Below, one piece after another: positions 613 through 9,005 of a stretch of DNA of 64,000 nt (positions are counted from its first letter, which is position 1; every line of letters starts with the position of its first letter). The position numbers were made by a program, and so were the translations under genes. Origin of the DNA: Anaerolineaceae bacterium (GTDB taxonomy: Bacteria > Chloroflexota > Anaerolineae > Aggregatilineales > Phototrophicaceae); contig NZXX01000002.1 in the NCBI GenBank assembly GCA_002702065.1, positions 930,001 to 994,000 on the forward strand. Reading direction: 5' to 3'. Below the pieces are notes generated by a model. That model saw only the letters and a list, made by a program, of their open reading frames with translations, was not told where the DNA came from and did not search any database.

Positions 613-679
613 ACGGTATTGGAAAAGTGACCTGTGGTGCGCAAAAGGATAAGCGGGCAAATACCGAAGATTTGCCGAA
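613..679 (-). promoter_or_regulatory. Composite promoter/operator of the Tat-protein gene
   Basis: CCGAAGATTTGCCGAA at 664-679 contains two CCGAA units 11 bp apart. CAAAAGGA lies at 642-649 and a -10-like TACCGT (minus strand) at 613-618. The same three blocks occur at identical mutual distances before the DUF3179 gene (2119-2185). Direct repeats spaced by one helical turn are typical of OmpR/PhoB-family regulators; an OmpR-type regulator is encoded at 4751-5545. The link to that regulator is inference. Confidence 0.55.
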
Positions 680-834
680 GGGTGTTCAGGCGACCAGTTT
701 GGAACAGACCAAACGGGTACTGGAACGGCTCCGGCCTGAACCAGATCGACATGACCTGAAAGCGGGACAGCGGACCTGCGCCAGACCTTTGACCTTATTG
801 GCCGACTTGTGGGGCTCTAGGGGTTGGCTTAACG

Positions 835-870
835 AAAAAGAGGGGTGGATGATTGGTCAACCCACCCCTC
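835..870 (-). terminator. Rho-independent terminator of the DUF3179 gene
   Basis: GAGGGGTGG (840-848) and CCACCCCTC (862-870) form a 9-bp GC-rich stem with a 13-nt loop. Reading the minus strand, the stem is followed by TCTTTTTCG. It sits 31 nt after the stop codon of the DUF3179 gene. The rest of the stretch 563-900 holds only the promoter element at 613-679. Confidence 0.8.
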
Positions 871-900
871 GAAAGCGTCGCGTATGTTCTTTGAATATCG

Positions 901-2094
901 CTATTCGGCTTCAGAACTGTAGATCGCGGTATCCGGCTGGAAGGCGGCCCAGGCGAACCAGAAGTGCGGGTAGGCAAACTGCTGCTGCAGCTGGCTGCCG
1001 GTCAGTTCACCAGCCGTCGCCGTGCCAAATATATTCCAGGTGCTGTCCGTCTGGTCATCGAGAATGGCGCCGCTTTCATTGACCCGGAATGTCAAGGTTT
1101 GCCCGTCCAGCTCGCGGCCAAACAGCGCCGCCATGCCGACATCGCGCGAGTCATCAATGCTGGATTGATCGAGGGCGCTGGTCGCGCCGGGCTGCCAGAT
1201 CGCCACCACATCCTCACCGCCCACGGTATCATTGATAACGATCGAGTCGGCCAGCACCGGGAATGGATAGGCAATCGCCTCGCCGCCGATGACCCCGGCG
1301 AGCACGCGTTCGGTGGGGAACAGGCGATCATCGGTCTGCCCTTGAAACAGGAATGGACGTTCGCTGCTGTCGTAACCGACATAGGGGTTGCGGCCATAAT
1401 CGCCGCGCGGCCCTTGCAGGACTTCACCAGCCGGATATTGTTCCGCAAACGCACCGAAGCCGACAACCTGCGATGGTAACAGGGTGAGCTGCTGGCCGGT
1501 GTATGCGCCGACGATGCCGGTGCCGGTGAACTGCTGCCACCAGCTCTGGGTCTGATCATCCCACATAATCAGGTCGCTGTTGCGCAGCAGCCCCGAAACG
1601 CCAAAGCGCAGCGTCTCGCCATCGACGCGGCGATCAAAGACGATGGCGCTGTTACACAATGGGCAAAACGTGACAGCCACCGGCACCTTACCAATGACAT
1701 CATTGGCAATTTCATGCCGGGTTAAGACCGCCAGCGGGTAGGCGCGGGCTATGCCGTCGACTTCCAGCGCAATGACGGGTGACTGCGGCTGTAACCACCG
1801 GGACGCGGCGTCGAGCGACTCAAAGCGTGGGTTATCAATCGGTGGAATGCCATCACGCGGAACACCACCGGAGATAATTTCGTCAAACACACCGTCCTGA
1901 TGCTGGCAGAAATCGGTCTTATTCCACACCTGCACGATCTGGCTGGTATCGAATGGCGGATCATCGCAACTGAGCTGGGCATGGACGACGGTTGCTGCTT
2001 CGCCGGGCCAGAAGCTGCTCACGCCGATAACTAATACCAGCACCACCAGTCCATAAACAATACTCCACTGCCGGAGAATAGCCTTCACCATCAT
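901..2094 (-). CDS. DUF3179 domain-containing exported protein
   Basis: The 397-residue product has a hydrophobic N-terminal segment (about residues 8-27) that should act as signal peptide or anchor, then a DUF3179 domain. The family's cysteine signature is visible as TFCPLCNSAIVFDRR, with a preceding ARAYPLAVLTRHEIAND block and later GIVGAYTGQQL and YGRNPYVGYD. The function of DUF3179 is not established; the CPLC pair could bind metal or be redox active (inference). I chose the ATG at 2094 because GAAAGGA stands 6 nt upstream; a further upstream start at 2148 has no comparable site. The promoter carries CCGAA direct repeats shared with the Tat-protein gene downstream. The gene is divergent from the FIST-kinase-regulator operon. 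Confidence 0.85.
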   Translation of the reverse strand: MMVKAILRQWSIVYGLVVLVLVIGVSSFWPGEAATVVHAQLSCDDPPFDTSQIVQVWNKTDFCQHQDGVFDEIISGGVPRDGIPPIDNPRFESLDAASRWLQPQSPVIALEVDGIARAYPLAVLTRHEIANDVIGKVPVAVTFCPLCNSAIVFDRRVDGETLRFGVSGLLRNSDLIMWDDQTQSWWQQFTGTGIVGAYTGQQLTLLPSQVVGFGAFAEQYPAGEVLQGPRGDYGRNPYVGYDSSERPFLFQGQTDDRLFPTERVLAGVIGGEAIAYPFPVLADSIVINDTVGGEDVVAIWQPGATSALDQSSIDDSRDVGMAALFGRELDGQTLTFRVNESGAILDDQTDSTWNIFGTATAGELTGSQLQQQFAYPHFWFAWAAFQPDTAIYSSEAE

Positions 2095-2118
2095 CCAAAT
2101 CCTTTCAATTGCTTCATT

Positions 2119-2185
2119 ACTGTAAACGATTGCGCGGGGAAACGGCACAAAAGGAACGCCCGAAAAACGCCGAAGATTTGCCGAA
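2119..2185 (-). promoter_or_regulatory. Activator-type promoter of the DUF3179 gene
   Basis: On the minus strand TGCCGT (2142-2147) and TACAGT (2119-2124) are 17 bp apart, a weak -35 with a fair -10. Just upstream are three CCGAA units at 2160, 2170 and 2181, spaced 10 and 11 bp. CAAAAGGA (2148-2155) and CCGAAGATTTGCCGAA (2170-2185) are exactly as far apart as in the element at 613-679. Such a site next to a poor -35 suggests activation. Confidence 0.55.
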
Positions 2186-2284
2186 TATTGAGGATAGGCT
2201 CATCTTTTTCCTTTACACTGAGGGTTGAAGCGGCAAGCCCATTGCCCTTCGCCGGATGACAGGGATGGAGACCGGGAGCGTGAC

Positions 2285-3459: not shown

Positions 3460-4761
3460 ATGGCATGGCCTATGGACGAACTTGCTCTCACCCTCGCCAA
3501 TCTATTCTGCGCCGCTGATGCGGACCAGGCTGCTGCTCGTACGCTGTTGGCCTGGGCGCAGCTGACCCAACCGCATTGGGCCTGCCTGCTGTTTTGGGAT
3601 GCCGAACTGGGTCGCTACATTATCGGGGATACGTGGCTGCCCGCAATGAGCAGCATGGATGCACCGACCTTGCGCCGCCATGTCCTCAAAGTGGCCCAGC
3701 AGCATGACCCGGCCACCGCTGGTACCCCTGAACCCGGTTTCTTTTACCAGCCGCTGAATACGCCGGATCAGCATGTGGGTGCGTTGTGTGCCGGGCTTGA
3801 TCAGGTCCCCGCTGCGACGGATGAGTATGGTTTGCTGGTGAATTGCACGGCGCGTGCCCTGTACACCAGCACGCGACTGGAACAGGCCGACCAGGTACAG
3901 CAGCAGCTTGAAGCGGAGCGCGCCCGGCTCGAACAGCTCTTGCAGGCGGTCGAGCAGCAGCAGCGCACGATTGACCAGCTTCTACTGGCGGAACGTCAGC
4001 TGTCGGCCTCGCTAGAAGCCAAAGTCGAGGAGCGGACGGCGGCCCTGCACGCGGCTCAGGCGCGGTTGATTCAGTCGGAAAAACTGGCGGTGATCGGCCA
4101 GCTGGCCAGTTCGCTGGCGCATGAACTCAATAACCCGCTTCAGGCCATTCAAAGCGGTCTGGGGTTGATCATGAGCGAGGTTGATTCGAAGGGTTCGCCG
4201 CGAATGCACGCGGACCTCAGTACGATTCAGCAGGAACTGGAACGCATCGAATCGATCTTTCATCAGATGCTTGACTTCTATCGGCCAGTCTCGTTTGAAT
4301 TTGTTCCGCTCGACCTGAACGCGATCTGCGAGGGTGTGCGCGTATTGCTGCGCAAGCGCTTGCAGGAGACGCATATCACGCTGGTGCTGGAACTGGCGGC
4401 GAACCTGCCGCTGACGTGTGGCGATAGCAACCAGATCAAACAAATTCTGATTAATCTGATCCTCAATGCTGACGAAGCGCTGGCACCAGATGGCGGTACC
4501 ATTGCGCTGCGTACGACCAGCGACGGTCAGACGGTGTGTCTGAGCGTCAGCGACGACGGCCCCGGCATCGATCCGCAGCATCAGGCCCGCCTGTTCGAGC
4601 CGTTGTTCACCACCAAAACGCGTGGTCTGGGGTTGGGCCTCGCCATTTCGCAGGAGATCGCCCAGCGACATGATGGCTCCATCACAGCGCACAGCACGCC
4701 GGATCAGGGGACAACGTTTACGGTCAGGCTGCCGGTGAGGAGGCACTGTCATGACGAATAA
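3460..4761 (+). CDS. Soluble histidine kinase
   Basis: The protein (433 residues from ATG 3460) has an N-terminal GAF-like sensory part (about 10-135), a Gln/Glu-rich coiled coil (about 140-200), a HisKA domain with His221 in SLAHELNNPLQAI, and a HATPase_c domain with ILINLILNADEAL (N box), DDGPGI (G1) and GLGLGLAIS (G2). There are no membrane helices. HELNNP kinases of this type usually phosphorylate a cognate regulator, here the next gene, which overlaps by 11 bp. A weak start context leaves ATG 3472 as an alternative. Being directly downstream of a FIST protein, it may receive its signal from that protein or through its own N-terminal domain (inference). Confidence 0.9.
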   Translation: MAWPMDELALTLANLFCAADADQAAARTLLAWAQLTQPHWACLLFWDAELGRYIIGDTWLPAMSSMDAPTLRRHVLKVAQQHDPATAGTPEPGFFYQPLNTPDQHVGALCAGLDQVPAATDEYGLLVNCTARALYTSTRLEQADQVQQQLEAERARLEQLLQAVEQQQRTIDQLLLAERQLSASLEAKVEERTAALHAAQARLIQSEKLAVIGQLASSLAHELNNPLQAIQSGLGLIMSEVDSKGSPRMHADLSTIQQELERIESIFHQMLDFYRPVSFEFVPLDLNAICEGVRVLLRKRLQETHITLVLELAANLPLTCGDSNQIKQILINLILNADEALAPDGGTIALRTTSDGQTVCLSVSDDGPGIDPQHQARLFEPLFTTKTRGLGLGLAISQEIAQRHDGSITAHSTPDQGTTFTVRLPVRRHCHDE

Positions 4762-5545
4762 TCGCATCCTGGTGGTTGATGACGAACCGGCCATTCGCAG
4801 TTTTCTGGTGCGGGTGCTGGAGCAGGCTGGCTACGAGGTGCAGGCGGCCAATGACGGACGTGAAGCGCTGGCACGGCTGGAGACGGCTCCGTATGATCTG
4901 CTGCTGACGGACATTAAAATGGACCATCTGGACGGCGTTGAACTGCTTCAGGCGGCGCGCAATCGCTATCCGGACCTGGCGGTGATTCTGCTCACCGGCC
5001 ATGCGACCGTCCCGTCGGCCATCACGGCCCTGCGCGAAGGTGCTTATGATTATCTGCTCAAGCCCGTCAAAAATGAAGAAATTGTCGCTACCGTAGCGGC
5101 GGGTCTGCATGAGCGTGACCGTCAGCAGCGGCGGGATCGTCTGGAAGCAATCGCCGTTCAATTAGCCGATACGGTCCGGTTGGACAATCACGACACAGAT
5201 GAGCCGCCGAATCGGATGGTGGTTTCTGGCATGCTCAAACTGGATACCGCTGCCTATCGCGCCTGGCTGGGTGACCAACCACTGGACCTTACGCCAACTG
5301 AATTTCGGCTGCTGCTGGAACTCATGCGGGTGCCGGGCGTGGTGCTGGACTACATTAAACTGGTGCAGGCGGCCTGTGGGTACACCTGTGCGCGGCACGA
5401 AGCGCGCGAGATTATCGGCACACACGTCCTCAATCTGCGTCAGAAGTTGGGCATTGAAACCGGCCAGCCCCATTATGTCGAGTCGGTACGCGGCGTGGGC
5501 TATCGGCTGATTCCGCCCGAAGAATCCGCTTCTGCACAGCAATAA
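4751..5545 (+). CDS. Response regulator, receiver plus OmpR-type winged helix
   Basis: Residues 1-120 form a receiver with VVDDE (D10-D11), phospho-acceptor D54 in LLTDIKM, and a conserved Lys in LLKPVK. An intermediate stretch (125-165) leads to a winged-helix domain with LTPTEFRLLLELM and VESVRGVGYRL, the OmpR/PhoB signature. It is translated from an ATG behind GTGAGGAGG inside the kinase gene, suggesting translational coupling. OmpR-type dimers bind direct repeats about 11 bp apart; repeats of exactly that kind precede the two minus-strand genes to the left, which makes them candidate targets. The gene ends 33 bp before the convergent MFS gene and no clear terminator is visible between them. 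Confidence 0.9.
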   Translation: MTNNRILVVDDEPAIRSFLVRVLEQAGYEVQAANDGREALARLETAPYDLLLTDIKMDHLDGVELLQAARNRYPDLAVILLTGHATVPSAITALREGAYDYLLKPVKNEEIVATVAAGLHERDRQQRRDRLEAIAVQLADTVRLDNHDTDEPPNRMVVSGMLKLDTAAYRAWLGDQPLDLTPTEFRLLLELMRVPGVVLDYIKLVQAACGYTCARHEAREIIGTHVLNLRQKLGIETGQPHYVESVRGVGYRLIPPEESASAQQ

Positions 5546-5578: not shown

Positions 5579-6856
5579 TCAGAGCGCTTGCTCCGTTGCA
5601 GGCCTGCCCGCCCCGGCAATGCTGTGGATCGTGCCGGTGTTTTCGCGCCGGGAAAGAAAGACCACCGCGGTCGCAGCGACGGCGAGCAGCGCCACCGCCC
5701 ACAGCACCGGTTGGTAATGTCCCGCCCGGTCATAGAGCAGACTGGCCGCCAGCGGCGCTGTGGTGCCGGCGAGGGTGAGAAAGAGCGCCATGACGCTGGA
5801 GATGCGGCCATAGTGGGCGACCCCGTACAGCTCCGCCAGAATGGAGGGGCGCGCCAGTGTCACGGCACCCTGCGCGGCGCCAAACAGGAGAATGAATGCC
5901 CCGATGATGATGCCGGTCTGGCCCATCAGCAGGACGGATAACGCGACGGCCTGAAGCCCGAACACGCCGATGACGATCACACGGCTGGAAAAGCGGTGAT
6001 CAAGCGGCGCGAAAATGACACGCCCGACGACCTGCATAATGCCAATGCCACCGGTCGCCAGCGCCGCTGTACTGGACTCGATGCCGGTTTCAATCAGGAA
6101 GGGGATGAAGTGCACGCGAATCGCTGCTGCGGACAGCGAAATCAGGCCAAAGCTCAGGGTCAGCAGCCAGAAGGTGCGCCCGCGCAAGGCATCGCGGAAC
6201 TGGACTCCAGGCAGTGATTTCAGCGGTTCATCCTGAGAGATCGCTACGCCGTCCGGCTGCAAACCCAAATCTGCTGGACGCCCCCGTAACATGAGGGCAT
6301 GCAGCGGAATCGTCATGCAGGCCAGGAACAGGCCGAGAATGAGTACCGCTGTCCGCCAGTCGAATTCCCGCAGCAGCGCGTCCGCCAGTGGCAGGAAGAT
6401 GGTACTTGCCAGCCCGGCAGCAAACGTCACGACGGCCAATGCGGTGCTGCGCCGCCGCTGAAACCACTGGGCTATTACCGCAAATGCAGGCTCGTAGAGG
6501 ACTGCCGCCGCGCAGACGCCCAACCCGGCCCAGATCAGATAAAAGACGGTGCGCGTCGTCACCATTGACCATGCGATCACCAGCAGTGCTGCGCCTATGG
6601 AACCGACCGTCATCAGCTTTCGCGGCCCATGTTTGTCGATCCATGCGCCCACCGGGAAAGCCATCGCACCCGCCACCAGCCACATCAGGGAAAACCCGGC
6701 GGTCAGGTCCGCCCGTGACCAGCCGAGGTCGCGTTCCATAGGTGTGAGGAAAACCGAAAACGAATAATAGATGATCCCCCAGGAGATGGTTTCGGTGACG
6801 GCCAGCGTGATGGCGAGATACCATCCATAGTACGGTTTCGGGCGAATGCTCTGCAT
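5579..6856 (-). CDS. MFS transporter in the ArsR-controlled operon
   Basis: The 425-residue protein has about twelve hydrophobic segments and MFS features such as GAWIDKHGPRKLM in the loop between helices 2 and 3. It begins YYGWYLAITLAVTETISWG, like the monocarboxylate/oxalate-formate type MFS branch (family inference). It is the last gene of an operon headed by a cysteine-rich ArsR repressor and a flavoprotein, so its likely task is export of an arsenic, antimony or other soft-metal compound or of the flavoprotein's product. No arsenite pump of the ArsB/Acr3 type or arsenate reductase is nearby. Substrate assignment is inference only. Start ATG 6856 has a modest GGAAAAG upstream. Confidence 0.8.
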   Translation of the reverse strand: MQSIRPKPYYGWYLAITLAVTETISWGIIYYSFSVFLTPMERDLGWSRADLTAGFSLMWLVAGAMAFPVGAWIDKHGPRKLMTVGSIGAALLVIAWSMVTTRTVFYLIWAGLGVCAAAVLYEPAFAVIAQWFQRRRSTALAVVTFAAGLASTIFLPLADALLREFDWRTAVLILGLFLACMTIPLHALMLRGRPADLGLQPDGVAISQDEPLKSLPGVQFRDALRGRTFWLLTLSFGLISLSAAAIRVHFIPFLIETGIESSTAALATGGIGIMQVVGRVIFAPLDHRFSSRVIVIGVFGLQAVALSVLLMGQTGIIIGAFILLFGAAQGAVTLARPSILAELYGVAHYGRISSVMALFLTLAGTTAPLAASLLYDRAGHYQPVLWAVALLAVAATAVVFLSRRENTGTIHSIAGAGRPATEQAL

Positions 6857-6897
6857 GCAGACTTTTCCAATGCAATGTGTCAGCGAATAAATGTACG

Positions 6898-6925
6898 AGG
6901 CTGTGACCAGGGACGATCACAGCCT
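6898..6925 (-). terminator. Hairpin between flavoprotein and MFS genes
   Basis: AGGCTGTGA and TCACAGCCT form a perfect 9-bp stem with a 10-nt loop. Downstream on the minus strand there is only a weak T-rich stretch (ATTTATT), so it may be a partial terminator or an mRNA stability element that lowers MFS expression relative to the flavoprotein. Confidence 0.45.
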
Positions 6926-6946
6926 TGATATGACGGCCTTATGACA

Positions 6947-8428
6947 CTATGAACAGCAGTCGCTGTCACAGCCGCAGGTCGTTGACTTGACTCCATCGCT
7001 GCAACAGGTGTCGTCGCAACCACACGCACGAGTCGCGGTCTGTAACCCAACTGGCTGCAAGGCTGCTTCCAGCGCAGACGGTTGCAATTTTAACCCGTTA
7101 ATGGGAATAGCGGACACCGACAACAACGCGGGCTGGCTGCTGGTTGTCCCACAGCAAGCCGCGCCTTCGCCTGCCAGGTCCGTGCTGCACACACCGGTTT
7201 CCGGCAGGTTCAGCTGGACATCGTGGGCCGCTTCCCAGTCGCCCACCAGCGCAGCCACCACTGAACGGACCTGTTCATAACCGGTTGCCAGCAGAAACGT
7301 CGGTGCGCGACCATAACTTTTCATGCCGACGATATAAAAGTCTTTCTCCGGCTGCCGCAGTTCGGCTTCACCATGAGGCCGCACCGTGCCACAGCTGTGG
7401 ATATTCGGGTCAATCATGGGGCCGAGTTCGCGCGTGCTTTCCAGCGCCGGGTCCAGGTCGAGCCGCAGTTCGCGCAGCATGTCGAGGTCCGGTCGGGCGC
7501 CGGTTGTGGCGATGATCTCGTCAACCGGGACCGACGTTGTTCCAGCTGGCGTTTCCCCGATGACATTGATGCCATCCGCCGCTGCCGCAATCTCACGTAC
7601 CCGGAACGGTGAGACGATTTGAATGTCCCCGGCATCCACATGGGCCTTGATGCGCCCGCCAAGCTGGCCGCGCGCTGGCAGCGCATCATCTTCGCCGCCG
7701 CCATACACTTGCCTCATGTTGGTGCCACGCATCGCCCAGATAATCGACGTATCCGCAAAAACCTTTTTAAGCTGTGCCAGTTCCAGCAGCGCGTTGATCG
7801 CCGAATGACCACTGCCGACAACGAGCACCCGCTGACTGGCATAGCGGTCACGCTGTTTGCCGAGGATATCCGGGATGCCATAGTAAATATGCTGGGCGTG
7901 GCGTTTTTCCCCGATGGCTGGCAGCCCACCGGACCCCAGCGGGTTGGGTTGATGCCATGTGCCGGAAGCATCAATCACGGCGCGGGCTTCGATCAGCGCT
8001 TCATTCTGATTGTCACACATCACATGCAAGACAAAGGGCGCGTCGTCCCGCCCGGAATCTTTCATCTTGTCGATATGGCGGCGGCTGACAGCGATCACCC
8101 GCGCATTCAGGTGAATGTGCTGCCGCACCGCTGGCAGTTGGCTGAATGGCACAAGATAGCGGTCGACCAATGCGTGACCGGTTGGCAGCTCCTTGAGAGG
8201 CGGCATCTGCCAGCCGTTGGCTTCCAACAAGCGGACCGATGCGCCATCGACGGTGAACTCCCAGGGCGAAAACATGCGCACGTGACCCCAGTTACGGATA
8301 TTGGCGCCGATGGCTGACCCGGCCTCAAAAACGATCGGGGTTTCGCCACGCTCAATGAGATGGGCAGCGGCTGCCAGCCCGACAGGCCCTGCACCAATCA
8401 CGGCGACGGGTAATGTTTGTGCTTCCAT
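6947..8428 (-). CDS. FAD/NAD(P)-binding oxidoreductase with duplicated cysteine tail
   Basis: The product has 493 residues. VIGAGPVGLAAAAHL near the N-terminus is the FAD-binding Rossmann fold, VLVVGSGHSAINALLELA the NAD(P)-binding one, and ATTGARPD the usual central linker, as in flavin monooxygenases/ArsO-like proteins. The last about 80 residues are unusual: a GVCSTD block with a Cys-Cys pair, then two copies of CGCDxxCC in the final 25 residues (eight cysteines). Such clusters can bind soft metals. AAGGAGA 6 nt before ATG 8428 fixes the start. A copy of the ArsR operator lies 85 bp upstream, so the gene can be controlled separately from arsR. A role in sensing, trapping or oxidising arsenic/antimony species is inference from context. 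Confidence 0.85.
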   Translation of the reverse strand: MEAQTLPVAVIGAGPVGLAAAAHLIERGETPIVFEAGSAIGANIRNWGHVRMFSPWEFTVDGASVRLLEANGWQMPPLKELPTGHALVDRYLVPFSQLPAVRQHIHLNARVIAVSRRHIDKMKDSGRDDAPFVLHVMCDNQNEALIEARAVIDASGTWHQPNPLGSGGLPAIGEKRHAQHIYYGIPDILGKQRDRYASQRVLVVGSGHSAINALLELAQLKKVFADTSIIWAMRGTNMRQVYGGGEDDALPARGQLGGRIKAHVDAGDIQIVSPFRVREIAAAADGINVIGETPAGTTSVPVDEIIATTGARPDLDMLRELRLDLDPALESTRELGPMIDPNIHSCGTVRPHGEAELRQPEKDFYIVGMKSYGRAPTFLLATGYEQVRSVVAALVGDWEAAHDVQLNLPETGVCSTDLAGEGAACCGTTSSQPALLSVSAIPINGLKLQPSALEAALQPVGLQTATRACGCDDTCCSDGVKSTTCGCDSDCCS

Positions 8429-8512
8429 CGATAATCTCCTTCCGACACAATCTTGCACCGTACCATGTTCATGACTGGTACAGCCGGTAGCGATAGGGGG
8501 TGTTTCGTCTTT

Positions 8513-8528
8513 ATCGTAAAAATACGAT
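8513..8528 (-). promoter_or_regulatory. Second ArsR operator, before the flavoprotein gene
   Basis: ATCGTAAAAATACGAT is a perfect inverted repeat (arms ATCGTA/TACGAT) and is the exact reverse complement of the site at 8871-8886 in front of the repressor gene. It lies in the 132-bp gap between the repressor stop and the flavoprotein start. Confidence 0.75.
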
Positions 8529-8560
8529 AAAAGGCGCAAAAAAGAGAGGCGAAGATCGCC

Positions 8561-8869
8561 CTAAAACAACATACCCGCCTGTGCCTTGAACCACGCGACA
8601 CTTTCCTCGCACAGACAATAGCACGTCGCCGGACCTTCCAGTGTCCCGCAGATGAGCCCGGCATCCCGCAGGACCTTCAGATGCTGCGAGACCGTTGCCT
8701 GTGCCAGCGGCAGCACCTCGACAATATCACCGGTAATGCACTGTGGATTCTCGCTCAGGTAACGAACGATTTGCATCCGTGCCGGATGACCCAGCGCTTT
8801 CATCATACGAGTCAGCCGCTGTTCATCCACTGTCAGGTCATACGATTTGAAGGTTTCTGTTGTTTCCAT
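8561..8869 (-). CDS. arsR: ArsR/SmtB-family repressor
   Basis: The 102-residue protein is a minimal winged helix: ALGHPARMQIVRYL (residues 25-38), recognition helix around QATVSQHLKVLRDAG (57-71), then a wing. Cysteines occur at 44, 74, 83, 85 and 87 (CYCLC), a pattern different from the classical ECVCDLC site of plasmid R773 ArsR, but consistent with a soft-metal or As(III)/Sb(III) sensor. The ATG at 8869 has no Shine-Dalgarno sequence; the operator and -10 region directly precede it, so the transcript is probably leaderless. Metal specificity cannot be told from the sequence; another thiophilic inducer is possible. Confidence 0.85.
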   Translation of the reverse strand: METTETFKSYDLTVDEQRLTRMMKALGHPARMQIVRYLSENPQCITGDIVEVLPLAQATVSQHLKVLRDAGLICGTLEGPATCYCLCEESVAWFKAQAGMLF

Positions 8870-8870
8870 G

Positions 8871-8902
8871 ATCGTATTTTTACGATAAAAGCCGGAATTG
8901 TC
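8871..8902 (-). promoter_or_regulatory. arsR promoter with overlapping operator
   Basis: TTGACA (8897-8902, minus strand) is followed after 17 bp by AAAAAT, which lies inside the 16-bp inverted repeat ATCGTATTTTTACGAT at 8871-8886. Repressor binding here would cover the -10 element. The expected transcription start falls at or next to the start codon at 8869. Confidence 0.7.
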
Positions 8903-9005
8903 AAGGGATTGGTCAGCTGACCATAACATTCGGGATTAATGAACGCGGATAAACGCATCAAACGGCGTGTGAGAGCCAGTTAATCAGGCGACAAAAACGA
9001 ATATT

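Follow-up and report, generated by a model that had tools for sequence, protein, structure and literature searches.

The 64,000-nucleotide stretch of DNA analysed here (hereinafter, the window; G000:C1:930001-994000, from a host genome of 6.77 Mb in 14 contigs) appears to encode, with a probability that we put at about 0.75 on the basis of its sequence, a compact and self-contained regulatory system, in which a FIST protein would act through a kinase and a response regulator on a repeat element located at the promoters of a DUF7482 gene, of a DUF3179 gene and of the FIST operon itself. According to the mechanism that we propose, the input would be received by the cytoplasmic FIST protein, which would control the soluble kinase, and the latter would phosphorylate the OmpR/PhoB-type regulator, by analogy with the NosP-NosK pair. 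The phosphorylated regulator would bind head-to-tail on TTCGGCA-N4-TTCGGCA, spread from there over two weaker boxes in the direction of the -35 position, and activate the DUF7482 and DUF3179 promoters, where a -10-like hexamer stands at a set distance and a good -35 is missing; the FIST operon would also be served, and thereby autoregulated, by the site that separates it from DUF3179. Taken jointly, binding of the element by the operon's own regulator, promoter activation and autoregulation are quite probable, and the sign of the regulation and the phosphotransfer are those that we infer. The element, its geometry and spacing, its conservation and its restriction to this locus are established by the sequence comparisons reported below.

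Table 1. Genes, repeat arrays and promoter hexamers of the window (position 1 is its first nucleotide).
Feature	Position	Strand	Basis or remark
Tat-signal DUF7482 protein, 372 aa	1..562 (starts at 562, runs past the window to G000:C1:929447)	-	Pfam
DUF3179 protein, secreted or anchored, with tandem duplication	901..2094	-	Pfam E 1.7e-99 and repeat alignment
FIST + FIST_C stand-alone sensor protein, 390 aa	2285..3457	+	Pfam, orthologs, alignment
Soluble histidine kinase (coiled coil, HisKA with HELNN, HATPase)	about 3460..4761	+	
Response regulator (NosR-like receiver and OmpR/PhoB winged helix)	4751..5545	+	
Four-box 11-bp array upstream of the DUF7482 gene: TTCGGCAAATC TTCGGTATTTG CCCGCTTATCC TTTTGCGCACC	636..679 (16-mer core 664-679)	-	
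Four-box 11-bp array between DUF3179 and FIST: TTCGGCAAATC TTCGGCGTTTT TCGGGCGTTCC TTTTGTGCCGT	2142..2185 (16-mer core 2170-2185)	-	
-10-like TACCGT, DUF7482 promoter	613..618	-	45 bp beyond the 16-mer
-10-like TACAGT, DUF3179 promoter	2119..2124	-	45 bp beyond the 16-mer
-10-like TACACT, FIST operon	2214..2219	+	28 bp after the 16-mer; TTACACT conserved in G115 and G139

The gene content proposed by a first-pass annotation of the same DNA was borne out by the open reading frames and by Pfam, with the FIST, kinase and regulator genes running rightwards between 2285 and 5545 and the DUF3179 and Tat-signal protein genes running leftwards (Table 1). The FIST protein matched a single NCBIfam model, NosP, and the match was weak in all seven orthologs (best E 4.5e-7), the score of 19.5 bits not reaching the equivalog cut-off of 450 (NF041558); no solved structure matching the FIST profile was found. 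The FIST orthologs share an invariant Cys-X4-Cys (C263, C268) and the invariant histidines H44, H74, and H378, and these residues are candidates for cofactor or metal binding. In the N-terminal part of the kinase (about 200 aa), no Pfam domain reached its cut-off and no sensory domain was recognised, while the phosphorylation site of the enzyme reads HELNN.

Pfam also confirmed the OmpR-type nature of the regulator, which comprises a receiver (Response_reg, E 6e-32) and a winged helix (Trans_reg_C, E 8.5e-15); its score with the PhoB equivalog model (TIGR02154) is 120.8 bits and does not reach the cut-off of 296.2. When the receiver alone was compared with 18,950 NCBIfam models, NosR was the best of them (116 bits), followed by NtrC (99). 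The same model ranked first in three of the four orthologs tested (those of the window, G115, and G011) and third in G033; for four control receivers from the same order, three of which are mutually close homologs, NosR was not among the matches listed. The regulator thus looks like a PhoB-type DNA-binding domain fitted with a NosR-type receiver.

NosP, a heme-bound protein of the FIST type, exerts control over a soluble kinase encoded next to it, in which no sensory domain is recognised; from this kinase, the signal often passes to a c-di-GMP regulator (PMC12570481). The operon of the window resembles the NosP-NosK-NosR systems of, e.g., Burkholderia (PMC12570481), since a single-domain FIST protein, a soluble kinase and a response regulator are encoded in one operon, the kinase has no recognised sensory domain and carries the H-E-x-N-N motif, and the receiver is most similar to NosR. 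The two differ in the output of the regulator, which in the window is an OmpR/PhoB DNA-binding domain and not a c-di-GMP domain, in the FIST protein, which lies far below the NosP equivalog cut-off, in the host, which belongs to the Chloroflexota, and in the presence of cis-elements and nearby target genes. The system would show that the rewiring of a NosP-type module from second-messenger control to transcription is possible. If nitric oxide is assumed to be the input also here, a further likeness can be drawn with HnoC of the Shewanella H-NOX network (PMC8738867), a nitric-oxide network in which a response regulator acting as a transcription factor exerts feedback on its own regulon; however, that network is built on H-NOX and not on a FIST operon, phosphorylation relieves the repression exerted by HnoC, and in the text consulted no repeat such as that of the window is described. 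In the literature searched, no transcription-factor regulator with feedback was found described for FIST. Moreover, among the more distant FIST genes of the phylum, too, a kinase gene tends to come next, followed in some cases by that of a stand-alone receiver; hence, the pairing of FIST with a kinase is a general feature, and what sets the present system apart is its DNA-binding output.

As for the targets, the outputs had been regarded as known, which overstated the case, the two in the window being proteins of unknown function. The gene leftward of the FIST site codes for a DUF1440-like membrane protein in G115, in G138, and, as judged from sequence similarity, in G139, and for a cytochrome c in G053; in G011, a tandem cytochrome P460, a DsbD/TlpA-like fusion and DUF3179 lie leftward from the FIST-side promoter (L065:9473 onwards), all in one direction. 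DsbD/TlpA-like, cytochrome c, and CopC/CopD genes are among the neighbours found in the relatives. The targets are all extracytoplasmic or membrane proteins, mostly redox related. The DUF3179 protein is a tandem duplication whose two halves are 35% identical, and only the first of them keeps a CPLC motif. Members of DUF3179 bearing a UxxC/T motif appear in a published compilation of selenoproteins (PMC9312934), in keeping with a thiol-redox role. DUF7482 co-occurs with the operon (three of seven genomes vs five of 147, p 0.003). The AlphaFold models were too poor for fold searches, with a mean pLDDT of 48.8 for DUF3179 (four sequences) and 33 for DUF7482 (two sequences). In the literature searched, DUF3179 was met in passing only and no paper on DUF7482 was found; the system would provide a first regulatory context for both. 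In three genomes, two of them without a FIST ortholog, the DUF7482 gene adjoins that of a Crp/Fnr-type regulator (L122, L126, L128), as if this output were there under another regulator.

FIST domains are widespread and, to our knowledge, the signal is unknown for most of them. In the window the signal, which the first-pass annotation had left unknown, is not wholly open, as both the architecture and the best match of the receiver point to the nitric-oxide/heme pathway of NosP-NosK-NosR; by this analogy, a nitric oxide or heme input to the FIST protein is plausible. Nitric oxide or the heme state, sensed by FIST, would be the most likely input, less certain than the rest of the mechanism, and we advance it as a reasoned hypothesis, held tentatively. 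Equally tentative is the wider reading of a Chloroflexota nitric-oxide/heme FIST pathway that combines a NosR-type receiver with a PhoB-type DNA-binding domain and in which nitric oxide would directly switch a small autoregulated redox regulon; the predicted members of this regulon are secreted redox proteins (DUF3179, DUF7482, cytochrome P460, and cytochrome c).

We give even odds to a different input, which might be an amino acid, a thiol or a metal, the outputs then serving periplasmic redox or metal handling. The gap between the NosP score and its cut-off speaks for such an input, as do the lack of a NirK match in the window's genome and of any nirK enrichment in the operon-bearing genomes (p 0.25), the DsbD/TlpA-like, cytochrome c, and CopC/CopD neighbours in the relatives, and the invariant CX4C of FIST. 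On the other hand, NosR is the best of 18,950 models for the receiver in three out of four orthologs, unlike what was observed for the control receivers, the G011 target is a tandem cytochrome P460, and cytochrome P460 is mildly enriched in the operon-bearing genomes (p 0.04). The co-occurrence of nitrite reductase was considered as a support for nitric oxide and was rejected, nirK not being enriched. Since sensor, kinase, regulator, candidate binding element, and candidate responding promoters are comprised within 5.5 kb, a reporter would allow the input to be screened.

The positions given in the first-pass annotation for the composite element CAAAAGGA-N14-CCGAAGATTTGCCGAA, 642-679 and 2148-2185, are exact, and the -10-like hexamers of the DUF7482 and DUF3179 promoters are indeed equidistant from the 16-mer (Table 1). 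The CCGAA units, described there as recurring every 10-11 bp, do have an OmpR-type repeat layout, which can be refined to TGCCGAA-N4-TGCCGAA, an 11-bp direct repeat; this is part of a longer 11-bp array, and most of CAAAAGGA lies in the fourth box of the latter. The consensus of the array, read towards DUF7482/DUF3179 in eight promoters, is TTCGGCAAATC, TTCGGCATTTn, nnnGGTGnTnC, TTTn, with a period of 11 bp, and the fourth box extends to the expected position of the -35; no good -35 was seen at the array promoters, those of FIST included. The PhoB box consists of two 11-bp direct repeats, each made up of a conserved 7-mer and 4 bp (PMC2648988). The system of the window shares with PhoB and its box the combination of a receiver with Trans_reg_C and tandem 11-bp direct repeats reaching towards the -35, but the half-site is TTCGGCA and not the CTGTCAT of PhoB, the receiver is not of the usual OmpR-family kind, and the targets are unrelated to phosphate.

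Perfect copies of the 16-mer CCGAAGATTTGCCGAA are only two in the whole 6.77-Mb genome, both intergenic and both beside the FIST operon, so that a repeat scattered genome-wide was rejected; the matches with one and two mismatches inspected in the same genome fall in coding ORFs. The longest word common to the two intergenic regions is 16 nucleotides long, while 2000 dinucleotide shuffles gave 13 at most. The similarity of the two sites stops short of the flanks, and the two do not represent a recent duplication.

In seven promoters from five species, a TANNNT hexamer begins 44-45 bp past the 16-mer (TACCGT, TACAGT, TATGGT, TACACT, TACACT, TAAAGT, and TACAGT). With a stricter test (at least four of six matches to TATAAT), six of the seven leftward promoters align at an offset of 60-61, the maximum in 3000 shuffles being three. 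The relaxed composite TTCGG-N6-TTCGG-N43-46-TANNNT retrieved five matches from seven genomes, all at these promoters; a reversed-pattern control gave five matches in total from the same genomes, and the argument from the composite therefore rests on the location of the matches and not on their number.

In the rightward direction, where the repeat has the opposite orientation relative to that found at the other targets, the 16-mer ends 28 bp (G000 and G115) or 29 bp (G139) before the TACACT of FIST; the corresponding repeat ends 18 bp before TATAGT in G138 and 17 bp before TATATT in G011, that is, one helical turn nearer. The DUF3179 and Tat-protein promoters had been rightly indicated as likely targets by the first annotation, which, however, missed that the inner site is so placed as to serve the FIST operon too. 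Since this site lies between divergent promoters and 28 bp before the conserved -10 of FIST, autoregulation is likely, and the FIST operon is probably autoregulated through it. According to an alternative that we consider rather unlikely, the outward promoters (those of DUF7482, DUF3179, and their equivalents) are the only ones under the control of the site, and the FIST operon is not. The one-sided target of the DUF7482 sites would agree with this, as would the leftward spacing, the tightest of all (44-45 bp in seven promoters), but the -10 of FIST, too, keeps a set distance (28-29 bp in three species; in two others 17-18 bp, shorter by one turn) and the FIST promoters, too, are devoid of a good -35.

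The comparison was then extended to the relatives, the named operon-bearing ones being Anaerolineae and other Chloroflexi genomes. FIST orthologs (54-68% identity) were found in seven of the 154 genomes of the order, a set of seven only, related by descent, and the kinase and regulator genes adjoin FIST in all seven; no other close ortholog was retrieved from the 396 class and 400 phylum genomes sampled, which gave only FIST proteins with 25-29% identity. The search of related genomes indicated as a check in the first-pass annotation revealed that the element accompanies the FIST operon across species. Three genomes (G000, G115, and G139) harbor the exact 16-mer upstream of FIST, in flanks that are a mere 37-43% identical, which argues that the core has been selectively kept; in G115, as in the window, DUF7482 is preceded by another exact copy. 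Variants are present upstream of FIST in G011 (TGCCGAACGTTTGGCAAA, two mismatches to the repeat, equalled in none of 400 shuffles) and in G138 (TACCCAGCAATTGCCGAA, three mismatches, equalled in 10 of 400). By mismatch count, no significant core match was found in G053 (81/400 shuffles) or G033 (153/400); the array of G053 is one 11-bp unit closer, 33 bp before TATACT. The DUF7482/DUF3179 loci scanned from FIST-less genomes have no intergenic element at 0-3 mismatches, and 4-mismatch matches only. Rather than occurring at many unrelated genes, which the first annotation had named as contrary evidence, the element is confined to this locus.

These data bear on the idea that some other regulator, either another OmpR-family member or an unrelated protein, binds the element, which would then lie near the FIST operon by accident. 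Other OmpR-type regulators are to be expected in the genome, and binding by the operon's own regulator is something that we infer; nevertheless, the element occurs at this locus only and accompanies the operon in three or more genera, it was not found in the scanned FIST-less target loci, and the geometry of the repeats is that expected for the domain of the operon's regulator, so that we deem this idea improbable. Finally, that the two 16-mers represent chance or a functionless local duplication, as the presence of just two copies in the window's genome might suggest, is hardly credible, given that the shared word beats all 2000 shuffles, that the flanks are unduplicated and that other species have this core in the corresponding position, a conservation that contradicts it.

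The binding of the regulator of the FIST operon to the element and its activation of the nearby promoters thus being the preferred reading, a few further observations on the window and on the 16-mer can be added. Exact copies of CCGAAGATTTGCCGAA in family f8 (G008, G015, G021, and G038; L068, L069, L070, and L071) were rejected as regulatory, as they lie inside a kinase coding sequence; their presence is a coincidence of the kinase G1 box, and this case warns that matches to the 16-mer need context before being counted. Next to the operon, positions 5579-8929 (minus strand) of the window harbor arsenic-type genes, coding for an MFS transporter similar to lactate/ArsK carriers, an ArsR-family regulator, and an ArsO-like flavin monooxygenase whose tail is rich in Cys; there is no sign of their belonging to the FIST system. 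In G138, which has the FIST operon, three half-sites in an 11-bp register (TGCCGGTCTGATGCCGATCTTACGCCGAG; L136:4097-4125, on G138:C611) lie upstream of a second DUF3179 gene, with a weak -10-like CATGGT 28 bp further on; by a match that is not significant alone, this gene is a possible extra member of the regulon.
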